NCBI GenBank assembly: GCA_037974665.1
Contig: CM075768.1
Span: 3,498,501 to 3,562,500, forward strand
Reading direction: 5' to 3'
DNA: 64,000 nucleotides
From: Ehretia macrophylla
Taxonomy: Eukaryota > Streptophyta > Magnoliopsida > Boraginales > Ehretiaceae
In this document: positions 1 to 60,317 of the stretch, piece by piece
How positions within the stretch are numbered: the stretch's first letter is position 1
Layout: every line of letters starts with the position of its first letter
Made by a program: the position numbers and the translations under genes
The notes under the pieces: model-generated
Told to the model about the DNA's origin: nothing
The model's input: the letters and a program-made list of their open reading frames with translations, nothing else
The model's database searches: none

Positions 1-1754
1 AGAGGAATGAGCAAAAACTATTGCTCAGCGAGGGCAATTGGTCTCAAGGACGGAGATGAGAGGAGTATGCAATGCAATTAGCCAAGCAATACATACAAAT
101 CATATAAAGATACAACCAAAGCCAGCAATAAAGCAAGGCAAGTATTTACAGCTGCAAACACTCAAATAAAGGATACAATACTCTTTTCACGAGCAACTTT
201 CAAACACGAATTCGATGACGACGCGCCGGCCCAAACCACCTTATAACACCAGTTTGGAATACCCCGGAAGTATCCATCAACCTACGACCCAAATCTCCCT
301 GGGAAGCAACCCAAGCGAGAAAGGGAATAGCAGCGGAGCTAGAGCAACCAACACTGGCAACCCAAGGCTACCCAGAGAGGCCCATCACTCACGCGCGAGA
401 CACTATGCAATGCAAGACTCGATACAAGACGATAAACAAGCGATAAAGCCACACGTGGGAGAATAACAAAGTAGGCTACTCTCGCACGCAATAGCAGCAA
501 TTGATAAGCAATTCAATCCAAAACAACTCAAACAAGTATTTCAAGTAATTCTAAGCATTCTATAGGCATAAAGACAAGAAAACACACAAAAACACAAATC
601 GACCCCAACTATCAAAACGCTACCATTTCCAAACGAGCCACGGGTTCTGCAAACCGACTTCGCCAACCCTCCTAGGTTACCATAAGGCACGTCTAAAGAC
701 CCCGAAACCTTACTTTACCCTAGAACTCGCGCAAAGCCCCGATTTTCCCCCTTTCTCGTTTGAACTACAACTACAACAACCAAACACCCAATCAACGCCA
801 TAATCGCACCAAAAGTGCTTCCATGGCCTCCCGAAGCAATGCCAACACGCAAAACGAGAAAATGCAAAAGTCGATCAAAACGACCCCAACTTTCCCAAAG
901 GCTTAATTCTCATTTTTTCCACTACGCAACCCAAACAAACCACACATTTTAGCATTCTAGCATACCTAGCACATTTCTACATCAATGGAAAGCATAACAG
1001 CGCAATTTCAACGTTTCAAGGTTTTACTATTCACAAAACACTATTCATATCACAATTTAATTTGCAATCACAACATTTAACCGCAGAAAATGTTACAAAG
1101 CTATAAATACATGTTCTACAAATGCCAAGGAACATTCTAGAAGCATCAAATCGCTTTAAATAACGATCTACAGATAAATCTAAAAATTGACAAAGTTAAC
1201 ATATACAACGTATAAATGCGCAAATAACATGCTTCCCTCACCTCAGGTACTCCTAGTCGCTAGGAAAACAACATTGGTTGCCTCGGAAATCACCCCGCAC
1301 GAGCTCACGCGAAGATTGATCGTTTGGAAGGTTGAATATTTTTTTTTTCTTTCTCTCTTGTTTCGGCCAGCTATGGTTCTGTTTTGCTGCTGTTCTTTTT
1401 TTTATTTTGCTTAGTTTTTAGCTTATTTAAGTTTTAAAGGGTCAAAGTTGGTCAAGGGCTAAGTCAAACCACTTAAGACTAGGTCAAAGGCCCCTATTTT
1501 GAGCGTTTTAAAGCCATTTCAGCTAAGGTAAGGTCAATTAAAGCTAGCAACATTTAAAATATAAAAATTAAGTAATCTAAATACTAGTTTCACTATTTTC
1601 TGAGGACTGGAAATCGTTCTCTAGCTATCGCTCCTTAAATGCAATGCACGTTGCGTCGGCGAAAAAGTAACAATTAATTCATAAAGAATTTAAGGAAATA
1701 TAATTTTCAAAATAATAAACAAAGAAAATTCACATTCCGGGCTCAGGTATTACA
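1..1754 (-). repeat. Tek-1 3' LTR (partial)
   Basis: Base 1 aligns with base 7222 of the 5' LTR, and the copies run in step to ...GGTATTACA at 1754, so about 530 bp of this LTR lie left of the window. On the minus strand the LTR starts TGTAATACC directly after the polypurine tract. Open frames here (for example 215-466) are repeated in the other LTR and in other families at non-coding positions, so they are not called genes. Confidence 0.95.
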
Positions 1755-6694: not shown

Positions 6695-8977
6695 TGTCAC
6701 GCCCCGACCCGACCCCGCAAAAGGCCAAGCCCGGACCCGACACACGGACGGAGTCTCCTCTGTACCACGGACGATCCGAAAACCCTAAAATCAATATAAT
6801 TCTTGCGAAAGCCATAAAATAATCAAAACAAGCTAACTTTCTTCCAAACATACATTTCTTATTAACCAACTTTCTAAACCAAAAATGATATGCATACTAC
6901 ACAAGTACTTATGCCACTAATCAAATCCATTAGCATGCATTTTCTTACTAGTCACAAGAGTATAAGTTACAACATTACATTCTTCCAACTTATACAACAT
7001 AAGACCATAGAGGCCTCAAACTAGAAAATATAAACAAGGCTACAAGCCTAAAAATTAAGCGACCTCCACGCAATATACATAACATGCAAGGTTCGCACAA
7101 AACTGGTACCAACCACCAGCAAAGCAGAGAAGTGCTATCACAGAAACACCTCCACCTGCTCCTCCTCCTCTATTACCTCGAGAGGGTCTGCTTCAACTAC
7201 TCCTGTAAAAACATATTATAGAGAGGAATGAGCAAAAACTATTGCTCAGCGAGGGCAATTGGTCTCAAGGACGGAGAGGAGAGGAGGATGCAATGCAATA
7301 AGGCAAGGAAGAGATACAAATCATATAAAGATACAACCAAAGCCAGCAATAAAGCAAGGCAAGTATTTAAAGCTGCAAACACTCAAATAAAGGATACGAT
7401 ACTCTTTTCACGAGCAACTTTCACACACGAATTCGATGACGACGCGCCGGCCCAAACCACCTTATAACACCAGTTTGGAATACCCCGGAAGTATCCATCA
7501 ACCTACGACCCAAATCTCCCTGGGAGGCAACCCAAGCGAGAAAGGGAATAGCAGCGGAGCTAGAGCAACCAACACTGGCAACCCAAGGCTACCCAAAGAG
7601 GCCCATCACTCACGCGCGAGACACTATGCAATGCAAGACTCGATACAAGACGATAAACAAGCGATAAAGCCACACGTGGGAGAATAACAAAGTAGGCTAC
7701 TCACGCACGCAATAGCAGCAATTGATAAGCAATTCAATCCAAAACAACTCAAACAAGTATTTCAAGTAATTCTAAGCATTCTATAGGCATAAAGACAAGA
7801 AAACACACAAAAACACAAATCGGCCCCAACTATCAAAACGCTACCATTTCCAAACGAGCCACGGGTTCTGGAAACCGACTTCGCCATCCCTCCTAGGTTA
7901 CCATAAGGCACGTCTAAAGACCCTGAAACCTTACTTTACCCTAGAACTCGCGCAAAGCCTCGATTTCCCCCCTTTCTCATTTGAACTACAACTACAACAA
8001 CCAAATACCCAACCAACGCCATAATCACACCAAAAGTGCTTTCATGGCCTCTCGAAGCAATGCCAACACGCAAAACGAGAAAATGCAAAAGTCGACCAAA
8101 ACGACCCCAACTTTTCCAAAGGCTTAATTCTCATTTTTTTCCACTACGCAACCCAAACAAACCACACATTTTAGCATTCTAGCATACCTAGCACGTTTCT
8201 ACATCAACGGAAAGCATAACAGCGCAATTTCAACGTTTCAAGGTTTTACTATTCATAAAACACTATTCATATCACAATTTAATTTGCAATCACAACATTT
8301 AACCGCAGAAAATGTTACAAAGCTATAAATACATGTTATACAAATGCCAAGGAACATTCTAGAAGCATCAAATCGCTTTAAATAACGATCTACGGATAAA
8401 TCTAAAAATTGACAAAGTTAACATATACAACGTATAAATGCGCAAATAACATGCTTCCCTCACCTTAGGTACTCCTAGTCGCTAGGAAAACAACGTTGGT
8501 TGCCTCGGAAATCACACCGCACGAGCTCACACGAAGATTGATCGTTTGGAAGGTTGAATATTTTTTTTTCTTTCCCTCTTGTTTCGGCTAGCTATGGTTA
8601 TGTTTTGCTGCTATTCTTTTTTTTTTATTTTGCTTAGTTTTTAGCTTATTTAAGTGTTAAAGGGTCAAAGTTGGTCAAGGGCTAAGTCAAACCACTTAAG
8701 ACTAGGTCAAAGGCCCCTATTTTGAGCGTTTTAAAGCCATTTCAGCTAAGGTAAGGTCAATTAAAGCTAGCAACATTTAAAATATAAAATTTAAGTCATC
8801 TAAATACTAGTTTTACTATTTGCTGAGGACTGGAAATCGTTCTCTAGCTATCGCTCCTTAAATGCAATGCACGTTGCGTCGGCGAGAAAGTAACAATTAA
8901 TTCACAAAGAATTTAAGGAAATATAATTTTCAAAATAATAAACAAAGAAAATTCACATTCCGGGCTTGGGTATTACA
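6695..8977 (-). repeat. Tek-1 5' LTR (2283 bp)
   Basis: Minus-strand LTR with TG...CA ends (TGTAATACCCAAGCC ... CGGGGCGTGACA). It carries a predicted intron (7203-8463), the hairpin TGAGCAA-loop-TTGCTCA at 7229-7248, and a CG-rich self-complementary box CTCACGCGCGAG at 7609-7620 next to a TGCATTGCAT motif. The part from about 7840 to 7950 is strongly shared with sLTR-B and TD-1 LTRs. Confidence 0.95.
7203..8463 (-). other. Predicted intron inside Tek-1 5' LTR
   Basis: Minus strand: donor-like CTAAG|GTGAGGG (GT at 8463-8462) and acceptor-like TTTTTACAG|GAG (AG at 7204-7203) preceded by a T-rich tract. Length is about 1.26 kb. The conserved hairpin ends 25 nt before the acceptor. Supported only by the pattern recurring in seven other LTR families; splicing is not demonstrated. 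Confidence 0.5.
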
Positions 8978-10688: not shown

Positions 10689-13141
10689 TGTGAAACCCCA
10701 CTAATCTGCTTTAACTTGATTTACGTGTTTTGTCTCGTTTTACGTGCATATGACCTGTTTATGTGCTATAGGGCCTAGAATGTTATAATTTTGATATCAA
10801 TACTCCTAATACGTGCTAAATGTGCATTCATGAAATTTTCATCAAAAACAGAGTCAGAAATTTTATCGTCGATTTTTAGTGAATAGTATTTTCGAAACAC
10901 ATCCGCTAAAATTTTGAAACTGGTCTTTTTAACCCTTCTAGACCTATTCCACAGACTTTAATAGACCTGTGTTTGATGAAGACAGTTTTAAAATCGGCTT
11001 TAGAATTTATTAGGATTTTTACACCGACTTTTGCGAAAATCGAGTTTTAAGCCGACTCGGGTGGAATTCTTTGAATGTAAAACTTCTTGTCACCTAAAAA
11101 TAATTTACTTGAGCTATCTTAGGAGTTGCATTTTTTGTTTTGAGCAAGGAGTTAGCTAAAATGCATTTAAAATACAAGAAAATGAATTAAATGACTAAAA
11201 TACTACTTTGACTTTGCATTTTATTTATTTGACCAAGCTTTTAATTGCATTTAGTCATCAACACACACTCAACACAACACAAAACACACTCCACACATAC
11301 ACAAAGGGCCGAGAGCCATAGGAGAAAAAAAGCCAAAGAGTTTCAAGGTTTTCCAAGCAAAAATTCAAAGAAAAACCTAATTTTTGTCCGTAGAACTTCG
11401 TGCCGACTTGGATTCCGCTTGTTGGGCACGCATTGCACGCATTCCTAGGCATATATCACATCAAATGTGAGAGAAAAATTCTGGATCTCAAAACTCAACT
11501 TTTGTATTTTTGCATATAATTGAAAATCGAACAGTTAGAATTCTAATCTGATGATATATTATTGCTCCTTGCATGCTAGGGATCATTTAGCTGTAATACT
11601 ACGAGTTTTTATCGGTTGTAGCATAATTTTTATTTTTCGGGTATTTAAATTTGATTAAATTGTTCAATGTTGATTTAATTGAGTTGTGTTGATCGGAATC
11701 GATTGCCGTCGATTTCTAAATGTTTGATAATTACGTGGTAGCGCCGTTGTAATGCCGAATTTTCGATTATGATGTTTGGGTGAAAATCTGGAAAATTCAG
11801 CCTTGACACCTTAGGGTTTTAGAGTTATCGGGCATGATTTGGAGGTGTTATGGTGGTTTTCCGAGGGGGCTAATGTAGATGGTTGAATGGGTGAGTGTTT
11901 GAAACTGATTTGGAGTTGTTTGGATTAGTAGAATGTAAGATATGATTAATTGAAGTTTAGGTTGTCTTTCTTTAAAATGTTAGATTGAGCCTTAGTTGAT
12001 TGGGTGTGGGTTGAGTGATTGAATTGTGAGTTGTTGATGGGTAAATTAGAGTTTGATTGTGTGTTTAATGCATGTTCGGTTAGATGGCCTACTTTGTCAT
12101 CTAACTTAGTTGTTTGTTGTTTAATTAAATATTGATGTTATATTGATATTATATTGATTGATTATTGAGTACGGGAATCGGGCACTTTCGTTGCTGATCT
12201 CCCAGATTATTGATTGATGATTGATTGAATATTGATGATTGTTATGGAGTCTTGATATGTGTGTGCCACCTCTCGAGTAGCGTTGGGCTGTCAGGTTGAA
12301 AACGGCATGACTGCCAGAGACTACCCCCACCTCACATGACAGAGGTGTCATGGAGGGAGGGGCTAGTGAGGTACCTCGGGTGTGTAAGTAATGGGGAGTT
12401 ATAAGAAGAATGGTTGAGATCGTGATGGCGTATGGAGCTACACCAACTAGAGTATCCTTTATTGAATGGTTATATAGTTATGTGATGATAGTATTATTTA
12501 TGTTATTGTGTGTTTACTGACTCAAAGGATTATTCCAAGGAGTTTAGTAGACCTTGCTCGAGATCTATCGGATCCTCGCTGGGCTTATTTTATATAAGCT
12601 CACTCTCTATTATTGCATGTTTACAGGTGTACTTTCGCAAGATTACGGGTACGTGCCTCCTGAAGAGGAGAATGTGGAAAACGTGCCTTACGTGGATGAG
12701 TCCTATGTTCCAGAGTCTTATCCGTGATGTCGTACATGTTTTATTATCTTGTAAATTAACATAGTAGACTTTTATCTGCTTTGTAGTTTATAATGTATAA
12801 GATGTTGTTAAGTTAATGAATTAGTTGATGTTGTCTTAGTAGCCTTTCTTTTGTTTATGATTAGGTTGCTAAATTGGCTCAATATGTTTTTGGTATTGTA
12901 TATTAAGGTTTATGTATTATGTTGGAACGGAGGCGTATAACGAGGCATGTTTATTGTATGATATAGTCTTGATGTATGTTGTATTTATTGAAGAGTTGTT
13001 TATTATATGGTTTATGTAGTTGTGGTATGATGTCCTATGGAGGTTGGTTTAGAACCTCGGTATCCTATTTACTGTCGTTATACTGCCGAAATTTCGTTGC
13101 GTCCTGACTGGTTATAGGAGGGGTCGAGTTGGGGCGTGACA
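10689..13141 (+). repeat. Tek-2 5' LTR (2453 bp)
   Basis: Starts TGTGAAACCCC and ends GGGGCGTGACA. It contains a donor-like site at 11467, the hairpin TGGGCTTAT-tttat-ATAAGCTCA at 12580-12602 and an acceptor-like TTTACAG ending at 12626. Its middle differs from the other families: no clear GGTTGCGCAACC box is seen. Confidence 0.97.
11467..12626 (+). other. Predicted intron inside Tek-2 5' LTR
   Basis: Donor AAAT|GTGAGAG here. The 3' LTR copy reads the stronger AAAG|GTGAGAG with GT at 18912-18913, so this copy has lost the exon-end G. Acceptor GCATGTTTACAG|GTG. Length about 1.16 kb. The hairpin ends 24 nt upstream of the acceptor. Confidence 0.5.
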
Positions 13142-18134: not shown

Positions 18135-20597
18135 TGTGAAATCCCACTTATCTGCTTTAACTTGATTTACGTGCTTTGTCTCGTTTTGCGTACATATGAC
18201 CTGTTTATGTGCTATAGGGCCTAGAATGTTATAATTTTGATATCAATACTCCTAATACATGCTAAATGTGCATTCATGAAATTTTCATAAAAAACGGAGT
18301 CAGAAATTTTATTGTCGATTTTTAGTGAATAGTATTTTCGAAACACGTCAGCTAAAATTTTGAAACTGGTCTTTTTAACCCTTCTAGACCTAGACCACGG
18401 ACTTTAATAGACCTGTGTTTGATGAAAACGGTTTTAAAATCGGCTTAAAAATTTATTAGGATTTTTACACCGACTTTTGCGAAAATCAAGTTTTAAGCTG
18501 ACTCGAGTGAAATTGTTGGATTGTAAAACTTCTTGTCACCTAAAAATAATTTACTTGAGCTATCTTAGGAGTTGCATTTTTGTTTTGAGCAAGGAGTTAG
18601 CTAAAATTCATTTAAAAGACAAGAAAATGAATTAAATGACTAAAATACTACTTTGACTTTGCATTTTATTTATTTGACCAAGCTTTTAATTGCATATAGT
18701 CATCAACACACACTCAACACAACACAAAACACACTCCACACACACACAAAGGGCCGAGAGCCATAAGAGAAAAAAAGCCAAAGAGTTTCAAGGTTTTCCA
18801 AGCAAAAATTCAAAGAAAAACCTAGTTTTTGTCCGTAGAACTTCGTGCTGACTTGGATTCCGCTTGTTGGGCACGCATTGCACGCATTCCTAGGCATATA
18901 TCGCATCAAAGGTGAGAGAGAAATTCTGGATCTCAAAACTCAACTTTTGTATTTTTGTGTAGAATTGAAAATCGAACCGTTAGAATTCTAATCTAATGAT
19001 AGATTATTGCTCCTTGTATGCTAGGGATCATTTAGCTGTAATACTACGAGTTTTTATCAGTTGTAGCATAATTTTTATTTTTTGGGTATTTAAATTTGAT
19101 TAAATTGTTCAATGTTGATTTAATTGAGTTGTGTTGATCGGAATCGATTGCTGTCGATTTCTAAATGTTTGACAATTACGTGGTAGCGCCGTTGTAATGC
19201 CGAATTTTCAATTATGATGTTTGGGTGAAAATCCGGAAAATTCAGCCTTGACACCTTAGGGTTTTAGAGTTATCGGGCATGATTTAGAGGTGTTATGGTG
19301 GTTTTCCGAGAGGGATAATGTAGATGGTTGAATGGGTGAGTGTTTGAAACTGATTTGGAGTTGTTTGGATTAGTAGAATGTAAGATATGATTAATTGAAG
19401 TTTAGGTTGTCTTTCTTTAAAATGTTAGATTGAGCCTTAGTTGATTGGGTGTGGGTTGAGTGATTGAATTGTGAGTTGTTGATGGGTAAATTAGAGTTTG
19501 ATTGTGTGTTTAATGCATGTTCGGTTAGATGGCCTACTTTGTCATCTAACTTAGTTGTTTGTTGTTTAATTAAATATTGATGTTATATTGATGTTATATT
19601 GATGTTATATTGATTGATTATTGAGTACGGGAATCGGGCACTTTCGTTGCTGATCTCTCAGATTACTGATTGATGATTGATTGATTATTGATGATTGTTA
19701 TGGAGTCTTGGTATGTGTGTGCCACCTCTCGGGCAGCGTTGGGCTGTCGGGTTGAAAACGGCATGACTGCCAGAGACTACCCCCAGCCCGCATGCCAGAG
19801 GTGTGATGGAGGGAGGGGCTAGTGAGGTACCTCGGGTGTGTGAGTAATGGGGAGTTATAAGAAGAATGGTTGAGATTGTGATGGCGTATGGAGTTACACC
19901 AACTAGAGTATCCTTTATTCAATGGTTATATAGTTATGTGATGATAGTATTATTTATGTCATTGTGTGTTTACTGACTCAAAGGATTATTCTAAGGAGTT
20001 TAGTAGACCTTGCTAGAGATCTATAGGATCCTCGCTGAGCTTATTTTATATAAGCTCACTCTCTATTATTGCATGCTTACAGGTGTACTTTCGCAAGATT
20101 ACGGGTACGTGCCTCCTGAAGAGGAGAATGTGGAAAACATGCCTTATGTGGATGAGTCCTATGTTCCAGAGTCTTATCCGTGATGTCGTACATGTTTTAT
20201 TATCTTGTAAATTAACATAGTAGACTTTTATCTACTTTGTAGTTTATAATGTATAAGATGTTGTTAAGTTAATGAATTAGTTGATGTTGTCTTAGTAGCC
20301 TTTCTTTTGTTTATGATTAGGTTGCTAGATTGGCTCATTATGTTTTTGGTATTGTATATTAAGGTTTATGTATTATGTTGGAACGGAGGCGTATAACGAG
20401 GAATGATTATTGTATAATATAGTCATGATGTATGTTGTATTTATTGAAGAGTTGTTTATTGTATGGTTTATGTAGTTGAGGTATGATGTCCTATGGAGGT
20501 TGGTTTACAACCTCGGTATCTTATTTACTGTCGTTATACTGCCGAAATTTCGTTGCGTCCTGACTGGTTATAGGAGGGGTCGAGTTGGGGGATGACA
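18135..20597 (+). repeat. Tek-2 3' LTR (2463 bp)
   Basis: Copy of 10689-13141 ending GGGGGATGACA, where the 5' copy has GGGGCGTGACA. The hairpin here is the perfect 9-bp TGAGCTTAT-tttat-ATAAGCTCA at 20036-20058, and the donor is intact at 18912. A short tandem GATGTTATATT unit near 19570-19605 is expanded by about one copy relative to the 5' LTR. Confidence 0.97.
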
Positions 20598-21092: not shown

Positions 21093-22381
21093 GTGAGGGA
21101 ATTGCATTTTTATTGCATTTAAAGCTTTGGTTAATTTTATGAAATTTGTTGTTGTGATGTTATATGTTAATATAATACTAGATTGTTGTATAATCTAGTG
21201 TTTTATAAGTGTAAATACTTGTTTATGGTGTTGAATGGCTTGGATTACAAATTTTTGCAAATATCCTAATGTAGAAGATTATGAATAGGAGAATTTGGGC
21301 AAAGTTGATGTTTCTGGATTAAAACCTTGATTATATGTTATCTAAGTGTGCCATAAATGCTATTGAGCCTAGATTAATGTTTAAAATAGGTAGAACTTGT
21401 GTAGAACTTGATATTCTTGTCTGTGAACAAAGGAGCCATGTGTATGTTTTGTTGACCGGGTGTGTTGGTTGGTGTGAAATGTGTTAGGTAATGATTATGG
21501 TACATTTATGGCGTTGTTTTAATGTAAGGATTAGGCTGTTGTAGTATTAATGGACAAAGGGGATTTTGGGGGTTAAGTGGTAGTTGTAGTTAAAATGAGT
21601 TTTCTTAACATTTAAAGGTGTCATAAAGTGTCTACATATGTATGATTTAGTTGAATTGTGCATCACATGGTTTGAGTGCAGTATATTGTATGTAAATGAA
21701 CTAATGGACTAGTATGAAAAGTTATAAAGTTAGATTAAATTTGATAGAATGTTTTAGTATCCATTAGAAGTGGCGTAATTAGTTGTTTATATGTGATTTA
21801 TTGTCTACCTTGCTTATCATACTATTCTAATATGATTGAGGACAACCTACTTTGTTGTTCCTTTTTATGTGCTATCGAATTGAATTATAGATATTTGTAT
21901 GGGTTATACCTTGTGTGCATTGCATCATAGTTGCGCAACCATATTATCGGGACAAATGTGTTGGGTATTCACTAGGCGACAGCGGGCTTGCCAGTGAGTA
22001 TTCAATCTCCGTGCTCTAGTCCCTCACTCGCCTGGTCAAGAGATCGCTAGGGGGTATTGGGCCGTAGGATTTCACGGTACATCCGGAGTACACCCACTAG
22101 AGTGTTTAGAGTTATACCGACAAATTGATCGAGTTCATGGTTCGTAGCTCACGGTTCGTAATCGAGATCCAGACTTTGGAGTGTTTAGGGTTATTGAAAT
22201 CGTATCCTTTTAAATGTTTATTATTTAGTTGTTAAATTGTTATCTATCTTGTATTGCTACTTAATCTTGTGATTATATGTTGCATTGCACGAAAATGGTT
22301 ATGAAAATACCCCGGTTAACTATTTATCTCCTTCACTGAGCAACTGTGTTTTGCTCATTCCTCTTTCTAACATATTTCAAG
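21093..22381 (+). other. Predicted intron inside Tek-3 5' LTR
   Basis: Donor ATTGG|GTGAGGG and acceptor CTAACATATTTCAAG|AG. A CTAAC branch-point-like motif lies between hairpin and acceptor. The 3' LTR repeats the layout (58489-59777), with the hairpin ending 23 nt before the AG in both copies. Confidence 0.48.
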
Positions 22382-24881: not shown

Positions 24882-27800
24882 TATCACAACCCCAATTTTT
24901 CAATCGCTAATACAATCTCTGATACCATAATAAAATCGTGAATATTCCTGGGATCGTGATGCCACGGGCTTAAGAAGATCGCTCTGCCTAAATCCGCTAA
25001 GGCACAATTACAATAGCCCGAACACTATAATCATAATTCAATTCTGCCAAAGCTATCAAATAGTTTATTCCCAAATGCCAAATTCCAAATTACTAAATTC
25101 CATTTACCTTAGTTGAGGGACTAAATCTGGTTATGGCTTAGTTGATTCAATTACCAATCCATACTTAGTCAAATCATTTACCATTCCATACTTAGTCAAA
25201 TTTTAAACTTATTAATAGATTCCTCGAAATTTGGGCAGCATAACGACTGCAATATGGACATAACAGTTTTTTTTCTTCAACCTGCAAACAAAAAAGCCAC
25301 AAACCACAACTCTAAATCCTTCGCTATAGCTCCTCAACTCCAACTTCCAACAACATAATAGAATTCACCCAACACATACTAAAATGACATCTAATTCCAA
25401 AGTAAAACGTATATCATTTGAATAATCAAAAACTTATATATAAGTACGACATCTAACTATTATATTAATTTAAATACCACATAATATACAAACTTCATTA
25501 CTAGGGATTCAAGTCACGAACATGTTTTCCCTTAGCATAGAATCATCAAATATTGTACTCCGGCTCACTTACACCTGAAAGGGGGAAAAATGAGGGTGAA
25601 CTTATCTAGCACCAAAGCTCAATGAGAGAGGAATCTGGGAAGGTTTTCGAATACATTTTTCTTTTCTTATAAACCGTTTTGTAAATCCGTGGATGCAATG
25701 CAAACAAGATCTGAAATCTAAAAACAGTTCTAGTGTGTGTATATATATATATATATGCAAGTCATATATCACATATGAAGTAAGAAATAACTTACGCTTT
25801 CGAACATCTCCGAGGGAGCCAATGCCCATAAGCGAGAAGAGGATTATAAATCACATAACAACTTACTCTTTCCAGGCGAATCTGATTCAAGCAATAGTAC
25901 TAAGATGTTCAACATCTCCTTCCTTGTCTCTCCCAAGTAGAGTATTCCGAATAATACTAGAATCCTACGACCCGATTCTCCAAGGAAATCAATGTTCTTA
26001 AGTGAAAGGGGAATACGGACCATGGTAGACATAAGATCACTGACACCCCTAGGATGTTTGACGTAGTATGCACACTACCATGCCAAGGCTAGATGGTTGC
26101 AACCTTTTTTCACACCATTTCAAGTTCAAGTTCACATAATATGAGCATTTATAGCAATCAATTAAGCATCGAGTTTAAAACATTCACATAGTTATACATT
26201 TATAGCAAACCGGTAATTAACGAGCAACAAGCAATTTAATCCATGTAAATGATCACACAAGTGTCCTAACATATCTAGAGGTCATATAATATCATTGCAC
26301 ATTAGTATAAACTAATAACTTAGTGTATTTGCCACTTAATCAAATACACTAAGCATTAGAACCTAACTAATCCATCTAAGTCAATGCCTAAGCCGTTACA
26401 ATGACCTAATTTTGGCAAATTAGTTACCTATCTTCCCGAACTCCAAATACTCTGTTTTTAGTATAGAATTAAAGCTCTTCGAGTGTAGATAATTCTGGAT
26501 TCAAGAAAATCTCAATTCCGATCTAAATTGAGAGAGTTATAACCAATTTAATGCATCTATGTCTTGATTGTCCAGATTGAAGGCTATTCTAGGGTTATTT
26601 TGAAAATGGAAAATTCAGATATTTAAAATGATGGAATATGATGTTTTGTAGAACACAAAAGTTGTTCTGAGGTCGTTTACTATTTTTAATGCGCAAAAGA
26701 AACTTAAGGCAGTGAGTTGTCAGATTTAACAAAAATCCCATAACCTATTGTCTCGTGTCTTTTTTAGCATGAAAAAGATTTTTCATGTGGTTTTGTCCAA
26801 CAGAATAAATGTTCCTCTATGAGTCTACTACATCCTGATTTTTTTCCAATTTTCTCTAAAATCATGCATCCATAAAAACGGGCTAAAATTTCTGATTGCA
26901 CAAATCTGTCTAGAAAACTATTTTGAGAATTCTTACATGTTTAGCTTCCAAATCGTCAAGAACATCTACTAAACATTCTAGCAACCTCTAGCAATCTAAA
27001 TATACATTAAACAAGCTTACATTCATAGTTAGATACAAACAACTTCATCCAAGAAGCTTCAACCAACAAGAATGACAACTTTGGTTCAAATCTTCAACAA
27101 ACAAGATCCAACAACTTTTCATCCATAGATTTGTTAATATATCACCATACAAGCCTCATAAATCCATAGATATGCATTTATATCTCAGAAATATCCATTT
27201 TGAAAGAACCCTCACCTTTGATTTTTGGTTGAAAATGCAAGAATCACCTTGAAAATGGCTTAGAATCACCTTGCTAGCTTGTTAATCACCTTTGTTGTTG
27301 TTGTTGTTCACCAAGTTTGCAAGGGAAAAAAAACTCAAAAATCTTCTCTAGGACTCCTATGGTAGGCTGCCCATTTGGAGAAGAAGATGACAAGAAATAT
27401 CTTCTTATTCTTCTCTTGGAAGCTAGGTTAGATTTATTGCCTAATTGCATAATAACCCTTATTACCTTTTTAATTTGTAGATTGACCCCCATTTTGCCTA
27501 GCTTTAGTCATGGGGCCCCTTAGGTAATTAGCCAAACTTAAATCCTAGTTGTAATTCTAATCTTGGTCCCCAAGTTTTACTTTTGGTATTTGCAATTTAG
27601 CCCCCAAAGTTTGAAAGTTTTTCTAATCGTCCCCTAGTGTTTTCTAAAATGTAAAAGTTTTTCCATTTTTTTTCTAATTCGACCGGGGTGTTCCTTGTAT
27701 GATTTAAGATATGTGATATCCAGTTTAAAATGCCAAACTTTGTCCCCATGTATTAGTTCTCATAATTACAATTTTGACCACGAAAGTTCTAAAGTCTCCA

Positions 27801-28591: not shown

Positions 28592-29114
28592 TGTGACACC
28601 CCGATCCCTCTCGAGACCGGGAGTTCTAACAATCAATCTATTCACAACCCAAATCCAAACCCGGGCAAAATTTTGGGGAAAGACGGACAGAGTCTCTCCT
28701 GTTTCTAGGCAAATTGCAAAACCTGTAATATCATATAAATAGACCAATACCGTGTCCAACCATTCAATCACCTCAAGGCCATCCGAGCCTCGGTTCACAA
28801 CAAGCAATTCACAAGTAAATATAAATTCAAGCTTAGCAATTAAACTACACCAACCTATTGCATAAAGTAGACTATCATGACTTTCTATCTTTTTCCCTTT
28901 TTGTCATTACAAATATATATTGAAGTTAAGCTATATTAACTAAATACATAATCTAATGAACTTAAATTACATCCCCTTTAACATTAAATACATATAATAC
29001 ATAAAAGCATACAACTTTACAACTTTGACAACTCAAGTCACATAGGCACGCAGGACAACCCTTCAAGCATGGACTTTCACGAAATCACGAACTTTCCAGC
29101 TAACATGGCATTTC

Positions 29115-30488
29115 CTGAAATGTGGTGGTGAGGAGTGAGTATACACAACACGTATACTCAGTGAGGGCGAGACAGATATTGAGATGGAGAGAAAGAAGAT
29201 CGTGCAATGCAAATAGGTACAGTTAAGCAATACAATCAATAAAAGGCATTCAATATATATAACAATACAATAAACAATTAAGAAAAGCATTAACACAACC
29301 AATCAAAGCTATACCACACTTTGAAGGCTATGGATCACTCGAGCGAGTAATGTACCGATCACGATTCCGATGACATTAACGATGACGCGCCGGCCCAAAC
29401 CACCTTATAACACCAGTTTGGAATACCCCGGGAGTAACCATCAATTCTACGACCCAAATCTCCCTAGGAGGCAACCCAAGCGAGAAAGGGAATAGCAGCG
29501 GAGCTAGAGCAACCAACACTGGCAACCCGAGGCTACCCAGAGAGGCCCATCACTCACGCGCGAGACACTATGCAATGCAAGACTCGATACAAGGCGATGA
29601 GCGAGCGATATCAAGCATTCTCAACAATTGATAAACATTTCAATCAATAATCAACTCTAACAAGCGTAATAAGCATTAACAAGCATTTACAATCAAACAA
29701 GTGACAAAAACAACACCAACTAACATTATCAAGCATTAGCAAGTATTCTATAGGCATTATAAGCATTCTATAGGCAACATAAGTATTCTATAATCAATAT
29801 AAACATACTATAAGCTATATTCTATGAAAACACACAAAATCACAAAAATGACCCAAACTTTAAAACACTACTACTTTCAAACGAGCCACGAGCTTTGGAA
29901 ACCGACTTCACCAGTCCTCCTAGGTCACCATAAGGCACGTCTAAAGACCCCGAAACCCTACTTTACCCTAGAATTCACGCAAAGTCTCGATTTTCCCCTT
30001 TGCTCATTTGAACTACAACTATATCAACCAAACACCCAACCAATGCCATAATCACACCAAAAGTGCTTCCATGGCCTCTCGAAACAATGCCAACATGCAA
30101 TACGAGAAAATGCTAAACTCGACCTAAACGACCCCAACTTTCACCAAGCTGTTTTTCTCCGTTTTTCTATTACACATTCCAATTAAACCACACATTTAGG
30201 CATTCTAGCATATCTAGCACATTTCTACATCAACGGACAGCATAACAGCGCAACTTTATCATTCCAAGGGTTTACTATTCATTAATTACTATTCATTAGT
30301 CAATTTAAATTGTAATTTCGATTTTCAACCGCAGAAAATGCTAAAAAGCTATAAATACATGTTCTACAATCAACAAGAAACATTCTTTAAGCAACAAAAC
30401 GATTAAAACAACAATCTACGCATAAGTTCTAAAAATTAAAGTTTAGATATACATTTTTCAAATGCGCAAATAACGATGAAACCCTCAC
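29115..30488 (-). other. Predicted intron inside sLTR-B
   Basis: Minus strand donor CTAAG|GTGAGGG (GT at 30488-30487) and acceptor CACATTTCAG|GAAATG (AG at 29116-29115). About 1.37 kb. The hairpin ends 19 nt before the acceptor. Confidence 0.5.
29741..29820 (-). repeat. Four 20-bp tandem repeats in sLTR-B
   Basis: Units at 29741, 29761, 29781 and 29801, consensus AAGYATTCTATAGGCAATAT in the plus view. Tek-1 and TD-1 LTRs have a single AAGCATTCTATAGGCAT at the equivalent place, so this is a local expansion inside the predicted intron. Confidence 0.85.
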
Positions 30489-33543: not shown

Positions 33544-34929
33544 GTGAGAGAGAATCATCTTTTTGTGCATTTTTGCTAACTAGGGTTAACTTTTATTTTT
33601 TATAAATGTTGATTATTGCTTTATAAATGCTTATGAATGCTTCTAATACTTTCTAAAATGCCTAGAGAATACTCTTTTGTAAGCTAATAGCATTTGTTAT
33701 GGCTAGAAATTAGAATTGGTAATTGGAGAAGATAATAAATAGTGCCATTGTAGGGTTTTTGAAAGAAATTGCTTATTGGATTGATTTTATACTTGTACTA
33801 GATTCTAGAGATGCTAACTAACATAGAATTATAGTTGTATGGACTTGGAATGCCTAAAACTTGGATAAAGATACAAAATTAGCTTAGGTAACAAAGAGGT
33901 TTCGGGGTAAAAGCGAATCCGGGTTGATTTGATCGATATATCTGGTGTTCTTGGGGTATATAGGTGTTAGATATGCTTTTCTAACGCTTGTTTGGGCACC
34001 GGTTAGGGTATGTGTAGTTCAAATGCACAAAGGGAAAAACCGGTGTTTTGTAGGAAACGAGGGCTATCGGGTGGACTTAAGTGTTAAAAGGGTGTCATAT
34101 TGTGGGGGTTGGAGGATAGGATAGTTCGTTTGTGAATTGGGAACCTTGTCTTCCAGCTAGAAGCTAAAAAGTCTTTGTTAACAAAGGGGAAAAGTGAAAA
34201 ATTGATTGTTTGAGCTCACCTAGTGACTTGTAGATGCTTATAATGTGTGTAAGTGCATTTCTAAAGTAACTGTGAGCTTTTGGTAAAGTTTGTGAGAAAT
34301 GTGGCATTGACCCCCTTTGTGCTCGTATGGTTATTTTCATGTTAATGCTTGTATCATATAGTTATTTTCATGTTAATACATATATTGTACTTGTTCTCGA
34401 GGGCAATCTACCTTGTTGTCCTTCCTATGTGTTATTGTTTTATTTTATTATTATATTGTCATTGGATTTAAATGCATTGCATAGTGGTTGCGCAACCATA
34501 GTGTCAGGAGATGATGTATTGGATATCAGCTGGGCTGCAGTGGGCTTGCCAGTGGATATTCGATCTCCGTGCTCGAGTTCCTCACTCGCCTGGTCCGGAG
34601 ATTGCTAAGGGGTGTTGGGTTGTAGAATTTCCGGGGTACATTCGAAGTACACCCACTAGAGTGTTTGGGGTTCATGTTGGCTTATCGTGATCGAGATCAT
34701 GGTTCGTGGATCGTGGTTGAGAATTGAATAATTGGAGTGATAACCGATTGTATCCTCTTTAAATGTGGTATTTAATTAATTTCTATTGTTTATTACTTAT
34801 TGTTATTAGTGTTTGATATTCCAATGTTGTATTGCACGAATCCCCTTATAAATGTTTTCCCATAACTGTTCCCCTCCCTCACTAAGTATATATTATTTGT
34901 ATACTCACTCCTCATCATGAATCTTTCAG
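33544..34929 (+). other. Predicted intron inside sLTR-C
   Basis: Donor TTTAG|GTGAGAG, acceptor ATGAATCTTTCAG|TTT, about 1.39 kb. Contains the palindromic box and the conserved hairpin 22 nt before the acceptor. Confidence 0.5.
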
Positions 34930-39077: not shown

Positions 39078-42000
39078 TGTGACGCCCAAGATCACTACCG
39101 TACACTTATTAACTATTGCATCCACTATTTGCGCATTTTTACTGTGCATTACTTGTTACATTCTGTGGTTACTATTCATCACGTTTTTCAATTACTTATT
39201 TTTTTTGAATTAATATTTTTCTTAAATCATATTAATTATTTTAGGAATGAGAAAAATGAGCATTTGAGCGATTAGTGTTGAGAGCACCCATTTAGATAAT
39301 GTTTTATTGAAACTAGTGAATAGTGTTACGTAGTCTAACTTTATATTTTAGTTAGGTAGATTTTTAAATTGCATTTTAAACTTAATGGAGTAAGTTTTGA
39401 GCTATTACCTAAAGACTAAATCAGCCCCGCTTAATTAATATACCCCTTATACACCACATACATACATATAACATAGAAGAAAATAAAAATTAAAAGCCCT
39501 AAAGAGTGCCCCCCAAACCCGACAGCCCCATAGGAGAGGAAGGAGAGAATTTTGCTCATCAATTCTTGGATTCAAGCCCTTGCAAACTAGGAGCAAGTGT
39601 TTTTGTATGTCCTCTAGCATCCTACAAGCTCCTATACACTTGTGGTGAGGGATTTTTGCATTTTTTTGTATATATAAAGTTTGTATCAAAATGTTGAATT
39701 TCTAGATTTGTTGCTATTGGCTTATGATATGCCCAAATCTTGTTATATATGATGTGTACATGTTGTAGAGACCAAGTTTATGTCATTGTTCCACTTTTTA
39801 AAGGGTTAAATTCGTTGGTTGATTATAGGGTGTGAATAGTGAAGAAATTTTAGGGTTTGGAGGAAATGAGCAATATAGCTTGATTAAATGTTTCAATTAG
39901 TTGCCTTAGATGTTAATGAGGGTAGATTAATGGCCCCGTGTGGTTTAATTGCTCGGAATTTGGCTAAAATGTGAAATTGGTGACTTTTAGAAAGGGGTTT
40001 TGAGTGTAATGCGAATTTGGGTTTATTTAGTCATCACATTTAGTGTTCTTAGGCTATATAGGTGCTAGATATGCTTTTCTAAACCTCGGTTGAGTTCCGG
40101 TTAGGGTACTTGTAGTGTAAATGCATAAAGAGGTAAATTCAGACTTTTCGGGTAATTGTGATTTAAAGTGTGATTTCAATGTACTAAGTGGTGTCATTAA
40201 GTGTCAATAGGAAAGTAGTATAGGTTGGTTGCATATCTTGAACTTCGTATTCTGTTTGGAAGCTAATTAGCCTTGGTGAACAAAGGGGTTTTGGGTCAAA
40301 CGTAAATCCAGGTGAATTTGATTGTTATATTTGGTGTTCTTAGGGTAAGTGGGGACTAAATGTGTTTTTCTAACTCTTGGTTGAGCTTTTGTTAAGATAC
40401 TTGTAGTACAAACACGCAAAGGGGTAATTTGGGCTTTTGTGGCTAATACGGGTTAATGAATGATTTCAAGGGTTCTAAGTGTGCCATAATGTGTAACTAG
40501 AAGATTAGAATAGTTAGTTTGTGAATCTTGAGCCTTAGCCTTCGGTTTGAAGTTAAATGACTTAGGATAACAAAAGGGGAAAACGCGGGAATTGGGTATT
40601 TTGGCACTTGTATTGTCAGGTAGTTGCTTGTTGTGTATTTAAATGCATTCTAGAGTATATTTGAGCTTTTTGTAGAGTTTCGTGAAAAATGTGTTGATAA
40701 CCCCTTTGTGCACATATAGTTATTTTCATATTTAATGTTTAGATCTTGTTCTAATGTTTATATTGCTTGTATTTTGTTAAAGATCAAATTCTAATAGACA
40801 TTGTATGCTAAGTGAGTAGGACTATAAGGATAACTCATCTAGTTATATGATTATTGATTGTTGTAAATAAGAGTAATTGGAATTTATAACTTATAATCTT
40901 AACTTGACGGTATTTGATGCTTTTAATGTCTTATATGCTGTCTAATGACATGGTAAGGTGAACTTTGTAGCCAATTGTATGTGGAATATGAACTTGTGTG
41001 AATAAGTGATTATAAATATAACTTCTATTGCTGTAGGGTTGAGTTAAGTAAGAGTTGAGTTAGAATTGATATAGTTAATTGCTAAACTTATATGAACACC
41101 CTAGGGTTACATATTTGCTCTAATTCGGGAAAGTTGAAGTAAATCGGAGCTATTCTCTTGCGTGCTTGGCTTAATCCAGGTGAGGGAGTCTTCATCCTTA
41201 TGTGCATAATAGTTTATTTACTTGTACATAGATTACGTGCACTTATTGTCTATATCTTGTGTGTGAGGACAACCTACTTTGTTGTCCCTCAACCATGTGT
41301 TTATTGATTTATTCTATTGTTATCATTTTGAATGCATTGCATCGTGGTTGCGCAACCATTTGGGCATGGTAGTGTCGTGAAAACCGTACGGCATCGGGCT
41401 TGCCGGTCTACCTTGGCTACCATGGTTGCCCAGTCCTTCTCTCGCTTGGGATGCCGCCCCGGGAGAGTTGGGTCGTAGGATTTCGGTGTACATCCAGAGT
41501 ACACCCAACTTGGAGTTATAAGGGGATGCTAGCTTATCGTTATCAGTGACATTATTCTTCGGATTTCTGTTCGTGGTTCGAGAATTGGATTATTCAAGAT
41601 CATTGAGATTATATCATTTTATTGTGTGGTATTTCATTAAATTCTTGTGTCTAATTATTGTATAATACATGTATTTGTTGTATTGCACGTACCCCGAGAT
41701 ACTATTCCCGTTTCTCCTTCCTCACTGGGCATACGTGTTTGGTATGCTCACCCTCATTGCTAACAATTTCATATAAAACAAGTTCAGCTTCCCTTGAGCC
41801 TGCTGAGAACAAGACTTGTCAGACTCCTTGACTACGTGATACCTTGCTGCTAATTTTTGTGGATACTTGTATATGCTTCATAGGCCCTAGCGCCAAGTAG
41901 ATGTTAGTTGCTTATAGTCTATTTTGTGACCTATGGTCTTGTATATATTCTCGGCCTTTTGAATGTTGTAAAGTGTTGTAGGTTTAGCCAACATGTTTGG

Positions 42001-43654: not shown

Positions 43655-46206
43655 TGTAACACCCCGATCCCTCTCGAGATCGGGAGTTCTATCAATCAAT
43701 CTAATCACAACCTAAATCCAAACCCGGGCATAATTTTCAGGGAAAACGGACGGAGTCTCCCCTGTTTCTAGGCAAAATATAAAATCTGCAATAGCATTTA
43801 AATGGACCAACGCTGTGTCCAACCAAACAAAACTTCCTCAAGGCCATCCGAGCCTCGGTTTTCAACAATTAAACTCAGCAGGTATACATACATTTTCAAT
43901 TTAAAAGCTAACCTATCTCTTTTCATTTTTGACTAGTACATTCAAACTAGACAATTAACCATACTAAGCTACTGCATAAAATAAACTATCATGCCATTCT
44001 AACTCTTTTCCTTTGGACAATACAAACATGCATTGAAGATAAGCTATGCTAACTGATTACATAAACTAGCTTATCAATTCACCTCAACTACTTAGCTAAA
44101 TTTAAATTATATTTCTTTTAGCAATAAATACCTACAACATATGAAAACATATATCTTTACAACTTCGACACTCAAGCCACATAGGCACGCAAGACAACTC
44201 TTCAGGCAACGAACTTTCACGAAATCACGAACTTCCAACTAACATGACATTTCCTGAAATGTGGTTGTGAGGAGTGAGTATACACAACACGTATACTCAG
44301 TGAGGGAGAGACAAATATCGAGTTGGAGAGAAAGAAAGTCATGCAATGCAAATAAGACAGTTAAGCAATATAACTGATAAATAAGCAACCAAGACAAACA
44401 ATCAATACAATAAGCAATTATTGAAAGCATTAACACAACCATTCAAAGCTATACCACACTCTGAAGGCTATGGTTCACTCATACGAGCAATGTACCATTT
44501 CACGAGCGATACATCAATCTCGAGCTTGATGTTGACAACGATGACAATAAGCGCGCAACCACCTTATAACACCAGTTTGGATACCCTAGAAGTATCCATC
44601 AATTCTACGGCCCAAATCTCCCTAGAAGGCAACCCAAGCGAGAAAGGGAATAGCAGCGGAGCTAGAGCAACCAACACTGGCAACCTGAGGCTACCCAGAG
44701 AGGCCCATCACTCATGCGCGAGACACTATGCAATGCAAGACTCGATACAAGGCAATAAACGAGCGATAGCACAACAATACAAACTAGTGACAACAAACGA
44801 GATAACAAGCAATCACAATCAATACTAACATTCAACTAACTTTTCAAGCATAACAAGCAATAATAAGCTACAATAACACCAATTAAACAAGTATACCAAG
44901 CAACCCTAAGCATTCTATAGGCATAATATCAAAATAACAAGCAAAATCACAAATTGGCCCCAACTATCAAAACACTACCATTTCCAAACGAGCTACGAGT
45001 TCTGGAAACCGACTTCGCCAATCCTCCTAGGTCATCATAAGGCACGTCTAAGGACCCCGAAACCCTACTTTACCCTAGAATTCGCGCAAACCACCGATTT
45101 TCCCCTTTGCTCGTTTGAACTACAACTATACCAACTAAACACCCAACCAACGCCATAATCGCACCAAAAGTGCTTCCATGGCCTTTCGAAACAATGTCAA
45201 CACGCAAAACGAGAAAACGCCAAACTTGACATAAACGGCCCCGACTTTCACTAAGCCGTTTTTCTCATTTTTTTCATTACGCAACCTAAAAAAATCATGC
45301 ATTTAGACATTCTAGCATACCTAGCACATTTCTACATCAACAGATAGCATAACAGCACAACTTTATCGTTTCAAGAGTTTACTATTCACTAATTACTATT
45401 CATTAATCAATTTAAATTGCAATTTCGATTTTCAACTGCAGAAAATGCTAAAAAGCTATAAATACATGTTCTACAATCAACAAAGAACATTCTTTAAGCA
45501 ACGAAACGATTAAAACATCAATCTATGCATAAGTTCTAAAAATTAAAGTTTAGACATACATTTTTCAAATGCGCAACTAACGATGAAACCCTCACCTTAG
45601 ACGCTACTAGACGCTAGGAAAACCACGTTGGATGCCTCGGAAACAACCCCGTGCAAGCTCACGCGAAGATTTGACGATTTGAAGGTTGAAATCTTTTTTT
45701 TTTCTTTTTCTCCTATGGTTTTGGCCCTTTCAATTTTTTTTTCCAGATTTTCGCATGTTTTGTAATGTATTATGCATATATAAGATGACAAGTTGAAATG
45801 GTCAAAGCTTCGGTCAACCCGCTAAACCAAAACAACTATGCGCGACCTTACGAAAATGGCCATAACTTCTTCTAGAAAACTCCAATTCACGAACGGTTTG
45901 AAGCCTCAGAAACTAGACTCATAGAGCTTTCCAACCATATATAATTTGCTACCTAACTCTTCCCCAATTGGTCCAGATTTAATTCAAAAGTTGACCCAAA
46001 ATTTGACTAACTTAACATTGCATTTTTTTAATTTCTGATCCCAAGTTTGCCCTTTATTAAACATTTCAAAAATTTTCACCTTGTCCTAATTGGTCATTGT
46101 AGATGAAAAGTCAAGTAGTTTGGTCAAAGAAGGTGAAAGGTCAATAAAATGCAATTTAAATGAACTTTAAATGCTATTAAATATATGCCAGGTTTGGGGT
46201 ATCACA
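43655..46206 (-). repeat. TD-1 LTR a (leftmost, downstream end)
   Basis: Plus view TGTAACACCCCGATCCC ... GGTATCACA. Predicted intron 44254-45595 with hairpin TGAGTATAC-acaacac-GTATACTCA at 44275-44299; TATATA at 45777-45782 (minus-strand TATA box upstream of the donor). An A/C-rich stretch carries the TGCATTGCAT motif and GCGCGAG box near 44715. Confidence 0.95.
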
Positions 46207-48066: not shown

Positions 48067-50621
48067 TGTAACACCCCGATCCCTCTCGAGATCGGGAGTT
48101 CTATCAATCAATCTAATCACAACCCAAATCCAAACCCGGGCATAATTTTCAGGGAAAACGGACGGAGTCTCCCCTGTTTCTAGGCAAAATATAAAACCTG
48201 CAATAGCATTTAAATGGACCAACGCCGTGTCCAACCATACAAAACTTCCTCAAGGCCATCCGAGCCTCGGTTTTCAACAATTAAACTCAGCAGGTATACA
48301 TACATTTCCAATTTAAAAGCTAACCTATCTCTTTTCATTGTTGACTAGTACATTCAAACTAGACAATTAAACCATACTAAGCTACTGCATAAAATAAACT
48401 ATCATGCCATTCTAACTCTTTTCCTTTGGACATTACAAACATGCATTGAAGATAAGCTATGCTAACTGATTAGATAAACTAGCTTATCAATTCACCTCAA
48501 CTCCTTAGCTAAATTTAAATTACATTTCTTTTAGCAATAAATACCTACAACATATGAAAACATATATCTTTACAACTTCGACACTCAAGCCACATAGGCA
48601 CGGAAGACAACTCTTCAGGCAACGAACTTTCACGAAATCATGAACTTTCCAACTAACATGACATTTCCTGAAATATGGTGGTGATGAATGAGTATACACA
48701 ACACGTATACTCAGTGAGGGCGAGACAGATATCGAATTGGAGAGAAAGAAAGTCGTGCAATGCAAATAAGATAGCTAAGCAATATAACTGATAAATAAGC
48801 AATCAAGACAAATAATCAATACAATAAGCAATTACTGAAAACATTAACACAACCATTCAAAGCTATACCACACTCTGAAGGCTATGGTTCACTCATACGA
48901 GCAATGAAGCATGTCACGAGCGATACATCAATCTCGAGTTTGATGTTGACAACGATGACAATAAGCGCGCAATCACCTTATAACACTAGTTTGGAATACC
49001 CCGGAAGTATCCATCAATTCTACGACCAAAATCTCCCTGGGAGGCAACCCAAGCGAGAAAGAGAATAGCAGCGGAGCTAGAGCAACCAACACTGGCAACC
49101 TGAGGCTACCCAGAGAGGCCTATCACTCACGCGCGAGATACTATGCAATGCAAGACTCGATACAAGGCAATAAACGAGCGATAGCACAACAATACAAACT
49201 AGTGACAAGAAACGAGATAGCAAGCAATCACAATCAATACTAACATTCAACTAACTTTTCAAGCATAACAAGCAATAATAAGCAACAATAACACCAATTA
49301 AACAAGTATACCAAGCAACCCTAAGCATTCTATAGGCATAATATCAAGATAATAAGCAAAATCACAAATTGGCCCCAACTATCAAAACACTACCATTTCC
49401 AAACGAGCCACGAGTTCTAGAAACTGACTTCTCCAATCCTCCTAGGTCATCATAAGGCACGTCTAAGGACCCCGAAACCCTACTTTACCCTACAATTCGT
49501 GTAAAGCCCCGATTTCCCCCTTTGCTCGTTTGAACTACAACTATGCCAACCAAACACCCAACAAACGCCATAATCACACCAAAAGTACTTTCATGGCCTT
49601 TCGAAACGATGGCAACACGCAAAACGAGAAAATGCCAAACTCGACCTAAACGACCCCGACTTTCACTAAGCCGTTTTTCTCATTTTTTTCATTACGCAAC
49701 CTAAACAAATCATGCATTTAGACATTCTAGCATACCTAGCACATTTCTACATCAACAGACATCATAACAGTGCAACTTTATCATTTCAGGGATTTACTAT
49801 TCATTAATTACTATTCATTAATCAATTTAAATTGCAATTTCGATTTTCAACCAAAGAAAATGCTAAAAAGCTATAAATACATGTTCTACAATCAACAAGG
49901 AATATTCTTTAAGCAACAAAACGATTAAAACAATAATCTACACATAAGTTCTAAAAATTAAAGTTTAGACATACATTTTTCAAATGCACAAATAACGATG
50001 AAACCCTCACCTTAGACGCTACCAGACGCTAGGAAAATCACGTTGGATGCCTCGGAAACAACCCCGTGCAAGCTCACGCGAAGATTTGACGATTTGAAGG
50101 TTGAAATCTTTTTTTTTTCTTTTTCTCCTATGGTTTTGGCCCTTTCGATTTTTTTTTTCCAGATTTTCGCATGTTTTGTAATGTATTATGCATATATAAG
50201 ATGACAAGTTGAAATGATCAAAGCTTCGGTCAACCCGCTAAACCAAAACAGCTATGCGCGACCTTACGAAAACGGTCATAACTTCTTCTAGAAAACTCCA
50301 ATTCACGAACGGTTTGAAGCCTCAGAAACTAGACTCATAGAGCTTTCCAACCATATATAATTTGCTACCAAACACTTCCCCAATTGGTTCAGATTTAATT
50401 CCAAAGTTGACCCAAAATTTGACTAACTTAACGTTGCATTTTTTTATTTCTAATCCCAAGTTTGCCCTTTATTAAACATTTCAAAAATTTTCACCTTGTC
50501 CTAGTTGGTCATTGTAGATGAAAAGTCAACTAGTTTGGTCAAAGAAGGTGAAAGGTCAATAAAATGCAATTTAAATGAACTTTAAATGCTATTAAATATA
50601 TGCCATGGTCAGGGTATTACA
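48067..50621 (-). repeat. TD-1 LTR b (central)
   Basis: Serves as 5' LTR for internal 1 and 3' LTR for internal 2. The right end reads GGGTATTACA, where LTR a and LTR c end GGTATCACA or GATATCACA. Predicted intron 48668-50010; hairpin at 48689-48713 perfect. Confidence 0.95.
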
Positions 50622-58015: not shown

Positions 58016-58023
58016 TTTAAGGG

Positions 58024-60312: not shown

Positions 60313-60317
60313 TTAGG

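Follow-up and report, generated by a model that had tools for sequence, protein, structure and literature searches.

The window, a 64,000-nucleotide stretch of the Ehretia macrophylla genome (C5:3498501-3562500), carries LTR retrotransposons and separate LTRs with a common stem-loop (Table 1). Tek-1 and Tek-2 encode gag, protease, reverse transcriptase (RT), RNase H and integrase, identified by Pfam in eight ORF pieces, with the integrase after the RT. TG...CA LTR ends, a primer site and a target duplication are also present, and the elements are Ty3/gypsy LTR retrotransposons. The primer site, TGGTATCAGAGC, is presumably of the initiator-Met type. No chromodomain is reported by Pfam at 1e-3 in the same eight ORF pieces, and the last Tek-2 piece yields only SH3_Tf2-1; a tail after the integrase, judged by eye, is presumably chromodomain-like. 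The interval 43655-55037 on the minus strand is a tandem array of the form LTR-internal-LTR-internal-LTR, with three 2.55 kb LTRs that are about 95.7% alike, 1.86 kb internal stretches between them, and primer sites at 48063 and 52478. A second Tek-3 LTR copy, about 90% alike, lies at 58022-60319; a part of it near 59647-59876 aligns to the Tek-3 hairpin stretch at 92.6%, with no match in the hairpin scan.

Table 1. Hairpins, predicted LTR introns and associated features of the window. The sense strand of each hairpin was judged by its flank; a slash marks a predicted splice site.
Feature	Position	Strand	Signals and length
Tek-1 3' LTR, hairpin	8..27	-	acceptor beyond window
Tek-1 5' LTR, intron	7203..8463	-	AAG/GTGAGGG ... 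TTTTACAG/G; 1261 nt; from donor, acceptor and lineage alignment
Tek-1 5' LTR, hairpin	7229..7248	-	TGAGCAA with TTGCTCA
Tek-2 5' LTR, intron	11467..12626	+	donor AT/GTGAGAG; 1160 nt
Tek-2 5' LTR, hairpin	12580..12602	+	
Tek-2 3' LTR, intron	18912..20082	+	AAAG/GTGAGAG ... TTACAG/G; 1171 nt
Tek-2 3' LTR, hairpin	20036..20058	+	
Tek-3 LTR, candidate intron	21093..22381	+	donor GG/GTGAGGG; acceptor TTTCAAG
Tek-3 LTR, hairpin	22337..22357	+	
sLTR-A, intron	25575..27215	-	AAAG/GTGAGGG ... TTTCAG/G; 1641 nt
sLTR-A, hairpin	25597..25621	-	
sLTR-B, solo LTR	28592-31087		target duplication GAGAC
sLTR-B, intron	29115..30488	-	1374 nt
sLTR-B, hairpin	29136..29160	-	
sLTR-C, intron	33544..34929	+	TTTAG/GTGAGAG ... 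TTTCAG; 1386 nt
sLTR-C, hairpin	34883..34907	+	
sLTR-F, candidate intron	41180..41782	+	short form, ~0.6 kb
sLTR-F, hairpin	41726..41750	+	
TD-1 first LTR, intron	44254..45595	-	TCTAAG/GTGAGGG ... TTTCAG/G; 1342 nt
TD-1 first LTR, hairpin	44275..44299	-	
TD-1 second LTR, intron	48668..50010	-	1343 nt
TD-1 second LTR, hairpin	48689..48713	-	
TD-1 third LTR, intron	53083..54425	-	1343 nt
TD-1 third LTR, hairpin	53104..53128	-	
sLTR-D, hairpin	57296..57314	+	
sLTR-D, acceptor	ends 57337	+	TTTTGCAG/G

The original prediction described a hairpin with a covarying stem, shared by eight LTR families at one fixed place. Arms and coordinates are right for all 11 sites that it listed, and two unlisted hairpins were found, one in the Tek-2 5' LTR and one in the Tek-1 3' LTR. 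Of these LTRs, sLTR-B and TD-1 are a single type, and the fixed place holds roughly, at about 530-620 nt 5' of the LTR 3' end in Tek-1, Tek-2, sLTR-B and TD. Read in the sense direction, the sLTR-A hairpin is TGAGCTT...AAGTTCA. Pair 2 is an A-C mismatch in two of the listed stems, those of sLTR-C and sLTR-D (TAAG with CTCA). The pattern CCTCRCTRRGN{6,20}CTCAYYC has 59,361 matches (29,564 + 29,797) in the genome of 1.58 Gb and 20 contigs, compared with 593 (307 + 286) for the reversed pattern. Narrower patterns give 2,037, 4,712, 14,847, 226 and 3,337 matches, with none in their controls, and the first and last of these counts represent A-T and T-A at pair 6, respectively. The abundance of the hairpin exceeds chance. 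In viral contigs a related hairpin pattern has 30 matches, several of them repeating one another, and the first AG falls at 19-27 nt in none of the 30. A scan of the window against Rfam at gathering scores returned no family.

Covariation of the stem was analyzed in 72 LTR copies with 69 distinct hairpins, 9 from the window and 63 from the genome, the latter all but two on C1 (from the first ~100 matches listed). The copies were picked by hand for diversity among the matches listed, some are closely related to each other, and two (L103 and L112) were re-cut after an initial match that ended early. The predicted folding energy averages -7.5 kcal/mol, with a range from -11.8 to -1.3, over the 72 copies. 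Pairing was scored in 50 distinct hairpins whose 3' letters are unfixed by the search patterns at pair 5 and inward; some of these patterns fix the 5' letter at pair 5 and its class at pair 6, and 19 copies from a pattern that fixes both pairs were excluded from the tests of those pairs. Pair 6 is paired in 48/50 hairpins (25.5 expected if independent), as A-T in 18 and T-A in 28, and pair 7 in 47/50 (25.0 expected), as T-A in 24 and A-T in 19. Pair 5 is paired in 42/50 (35.9 expected; C-G 29, T-A 9, T-G 4), a count lowered by the search pattern for L107, L108, L109 and L112, which requires a purine at position 5. Pair 8 is paired in 25/40 (18.8 expected). The true register pairs more often than shifted ones at pairs 5-7; at pair 8 it is outdone by the neighbor two further in, which pairs in 28/31. 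The outer pairs T-A, G-C, A-T and G-C hardly vary, in part as a result of the search patterns, by which they are fixed.

The families have a common LTR ancestry, and kept pairing could reflect common descent without selection on the stem. A tree was derived from flanking sequence with the hairpin left out, and the null consisted of 2,000 simulations with an equal number of changes placed at random, a simplified version of our own of the R-scape idea rather than R-scape itself. By the G statistic, the null reaches the observed value in none of the 2,000 simulations for pairs 6 and 7, in 66 for pair 5 and in 23 for pair 8. By the count of paired copies, only pair 7 exceeds the null (63/72, with a null maximum of 52), and the null reaches pairs 5, 6 and 8 in 519, 283 and 417 simulations. 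On that count these three pairs speak for descent alone, as does the single deep change on the tree that accounts for pair 6. Pair 7, by contrast, switches repeatedly between T-A and A-T along the tree, with six two-sided changes and more flips that parsimony routes through inferred unpaired ancestors. Given pair 7, descent without selection on pairing is barely plausible. The covariation predicted for the inner stem is thus borne out for pairs 6 and 7 by the G statistic and for pair 7 alone by the paired-copy count, and is weaker at pairs 5 and 8. G-U pairs are present at pairs 3 to 8, which favors pairing in RNA over pairing in DNA.

Judged by its sequence, the region 3' of the hairpin resembles the 3' splice sites of plants. 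The first AG lies 19-27 nt beyond the hairpin in 69/72 copies and at 30, 32 and 34 nt in the other three, among them sLTR-F, a copy that has its AG at 32 nt and lacks the usual CAG near 22 nt. This first AG reads CAG in 51 of the 72 copies, AAG in 12, TAG in 6 and GAG in 3, such that 57/72 have YAG, and the following base is G in 58/72. No AG occurs in the first 10 nt after the hairpin; its frequency is 0.011 per dinucleotide in the next 10 and then rises to 0.16. A YAG acceptor after an AG-free tract is a feature of U2-type introns. Pyrimidines make up 71% of the tract between hairpin and AG, and purines 57% of the 60 nt past the AG.

The CTCAY of the 3' arm is a candidate branch point. The arm fits YTNAY in 72/72 copies, although in the 63 genome copies CTCAYYC (or CTCA) was already set by the search patterns; in 54/72 the stretch from the arm to the AG at 15-50 nt has no other YTNAY. 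A rival TRAY, often CTAAC or TTAAC, is present 8-14 nt 5' of the AG in 34/72 copies. In many families such a TRAY lies between hairpin and acceptor and could serve as a second branch point or as a factor site. The flanks were originally described as fixed while the inner stem varies; the fixed outer bases may follow from the splice context, with CTCAY fitting a branch point, TGAG its complement, and CCTCRC complementary to the donor.

In several families the ~60 nt after the acceptor contain a one-phase open frame that is rich in acidic residues and ends in a stop, as in Tek-1 (below 7203, minus strand), Tek-2 (from 20083) and Tek-3 (from 22382). This frame could be coding or merely purine-rich exonic enhancer sequence. 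A coding exon 2 was considered and set aside; in Tek-1 a TAA stands just 5' of the junction in the open phase, and by eye no joined frame is seen. A protein-level comparison of the LTR frames gave scattered matches only.

Alignments upstream of the hairpin reveal a common donor in two LTR lineages, AAAG/GTGAGAG and CTAAG/GTGAGGG, and a GT donor in AG/GT context is again a U2-type feature. The exact word AGGTGAGRG occurs in 16/30 upstream stretches and in none of the reversed sequences. When the 30 stretches are placed in 22 groups by shared words, the exact donor is found in 10/22 groups and is absent within 1480 nt upstream in the other 12. Further stretches have candidates with one mismatch, some of which are expected by chance. 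Within the 1480-nt limit, exact donors lie at -540 to -1390, measured from CCTCRC; others are further upstream, at -1594 in sLTR-A, at -1779 in two copies of the TTCAT family and, as GAG/GTGAGGA, 1967 nt upstream in L107, a relative of sLTR-D. For sLTR-D itself no donor with one mismatch or fewer was found in the 2300 nt upstream, and the donor search found none for L108, L044 or L055, the last of them scanned to 1480 nt. The LTR introns of the window would range from 603 to 1641 nt. A short intron form, in which only ~540-580 nt separate donor and hairpin, occurs in a group of LTR families (L005, L001 and sLTR-F).

In a hand-made list of 25 copies, some of them with donors that are imperfect or borrowed from the copy's relative, GTGAGRG of the donor is complementary over most of its length to the 7 nt directly 5' of the hairpin. 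The mismatches are A-C at +6 in 8/25 and T-C at +5 in 2/25. Covariation between the two segments is almost nil, with one A-T at +7 and wobbles at +1, +2, +5, +6 and +7. This pairing may hold the donor beside the hairpin.

If spliced RNA is copied to DNA, then LTRs that lack exactly the intron should exist. The genome was searched with exon 1-exon 2 junctions of four families, with up to three mismatches and with reversed junctions as controls. The TD/sB junction is present at two loci, L069 and L070, that match the TD LTR as far as the donor and then continue with exon 2, such that the predicted intron of the first TD-1 LTR is precisely missing from both. L069 is a solo LTR of ~1.36 kb with the target duplication ATGGG; a search for the 5' end of L070 found none. 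The junction of the Tek-2 lineage is present at two sites on C14, 2,525 bp apart, which are the two LTRs of one element; they are 97.2% alike, and both lack precisely the interval predicted as the intron of the Tek-2 3' LTR. The element has a primer site and the target duplication AACCT. The TTCAT-type junction is found at two loci, each without exactly the 1.8 kb interval, and no target duplication was found at either. The genome search with the Tek-1-type junction found none, and the reversed controls gave none in all four families. Exact exon-exon joining, a further U2-type feature, is seen as genomic junctions in three of the four families tried. Reverse transcription of spliced RNA best accounts for the exact absence of the predicted interval in these three families, two of which also show hallmarks of integration.

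These junctions also bear on the role of CTCAYYC, which we take to resemble a plant initiator. That likeness and the pyrimidine-rich flanks would suit a core-promoter (initiator) element, or an R-region or poly(A) hairpin at the transcript end. The hairpin sits within the interval removed as an intron, however, and TATA-like words lie 105-228 nt 5' of the donor, and hence far 5' of the hairpin, in 10/16 stretches examined, a count made without a chance control. An initiator with a TATA box was considered for CTCAYYC and dropped, given the position of the hairpin in the removed interval, and a promoter or transcript-end role is very improbable. In Tek-2 there is also a CA-rich stretch that resembles a plant leader.

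Tens of thousands of copies bear the hairpin, which suggests that intronless copies seldom spread. Their rarity would also be expected if splicing were a parasitic side reaction, with promoter or packaging sequence held in the intron and a hairpin that suppresses harmful splicing. The spliced integrated retrotransposed elements (SpIREs) of human L1, which the available part of one study describes as generally dead ends (PMC5860796), point in the same direction. An unwanted intron should nonetheless lose its splice sites, but AG/GTGAGRG and CAG/G are common to diverged families, and we regard a parasitic side reaction as distinctly unlikely.

We consider it probable, on the sequence features described above, that the LTR encloses an entire spliceosomal leader intron, with the hairpin as its branch-point element, and that the hairpin tempers splicing. 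The hairpin would mark the 3' end of the intron because an acceptor AG lies ~23 nt downstream, CTCAY matches a branch point and a common donor is found 0.5-2 kb upstream. The selection on RNA structure proposed in the original prediction then finds support in the pairing of the inner stem, but the structure would be the branch-point side of an intron rather than a free-standing element of the LTR. The LTR promoter would start the RNA shortly 5' of the donor, exon 1 would end in AG/GTGAGRG, and the intron of ~0.6-2 kb would be followed by an exon 2 that spans U5 to the primer binding site and gag. In the hairpin, CUCAY of the 3' arm would pair with the nearly invariant UGAG of the 5' arm, usually 19-27 nt before CAG/G. 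This pairing of the branch point is predicted to temper splicing, such that enough intron-keeping RNA remains for copying, and pairing of the donor with CCCTCRC just 5' of the hairpin perhaps helps to keep splicing partial. A branch point paired with a near-invariant UGAG, next to inner pairs that change while pairing is kept, is what is expected of a structure that tempers splicing.

The hairpin could instead aid splicing, by presenting the branch point, hiding AGs of the inner arm and compacting the region for efficient removal. The splice signals are conserved, and the stem would hide an AG that is frequent in inner arms (AAGCTCA, TAGCTCA). The near-invariant TGAG-CTCA pairs, however, engage the branch-point candidate itself, and spliced copies are very rare in comparison with hairpin-bearing ones, although this rarity may reflect a choice in RNA packaging. 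Such a helper role is less likely but far from negligible.

Under the tempering role that we prefer, the spliced RNA would serve expression and the intron-retaining RNA would be the template able to rebuild an intact LTR. An intact LTR needs the intron in the RNA that is copied, so the spliced RNA would be another, non-propagating pool. With an assumed RNA start, removal of the intron reduces the upstream ATGs from 54 to 28 in Tek-1 and from 72 to 36 in Tek-2; many remain, and a simple role in cleaning the leader for translation is therefore not supported. It is conceivable, at somewhat less than even odds in our judgment, that a retrovirus-like splicing switch resides in each LTR throughout a whole group of plant LTR families, with donor GUGAGRG and CYCUCRC in one helix and branch point CUCAY and UGAG in an adjacent one, to divide spliced mRNA from LTR-rebuilding, intron-retaining genomic RNA.

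In HTLV/BLV and foamy viruses, a splice donor lies in R and the acceptors lie outside the LTR. The donor within the LTR is alike here, but the predicted acceptor is inside the LTR too. Stem-loops in retroviral LTRs can cause conserved blocks; those covered in the accessible portion of one paper are R-region structures, and a plant chromovirus hairpin is not described there (PMC3601003). Plant LTR elements are generally without introns according to the available part of a 2025 review, with Ogre and EVADE as exceptions (PMC12786077), whereas tens of thousands of copies carry the hairpin described here. Ogre and EVADE resemble the present elements in having functional introns and differ as exceptions that make subgenomic RNAs, with no LTR-internal intron described for them in that part of the review (PMC12786077). 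BARE1, a Copia element, has a spliced gag RNA and separate RNA pools, as the available sections of its report state (PMC3735527). It is similar as an LTR retrotransposon of a plant in which spliced and unspliced RNAs divide the roles of translation and copying, as proposed here, but its 104-nt intron is in the coding region (PMC3735527). The predicted intron of the present elements, with a conserved hairpin at its 3' end, falls entirely within the LTR. In sunflower elements, the portion of the study available reports splicing in coding regions and Tekay missing from the expressed set (PMC7730604). The L1 SpIREs are the nearest parallel for spliced retrocopies: a spliced leader RNA is occasionally reverse transcribed and integrated to give intronless copies, in a non-LTR element for which the excerpt available describes splicing as inhibitory, whereas here splice sites and a hairpin are common to families (PMC5860796). 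Palindromes at target sites are the subject of another paper, seen in excerpt (PMC6911290). A literature search for a plant LTR-internal intron or hairpin, to which subscription journals and preprints were mostly external, found none, and such a description may be in print.

If true, an LTR-internal intron helps explain the length of these LTRs, shifts the probable RNA start far upstream, and places the retroviral problem of spliced expression and unspliced genome in an abundant type of plant element. As a small RNA structure whose pairs covary and whose predicted effect is defined, the hairpin makes this reading testable. Caution is needed with intronless LTRs in genomes of this kind, since such LTRs can be spliced retrocopies. 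Most Tek-type LTRs also have a motif like TTGCATTGCAC inside the predicted intron, ~45 nt ahead of the hairpin (at about 22280-22290, for instance) and again ~400 nt upstream.
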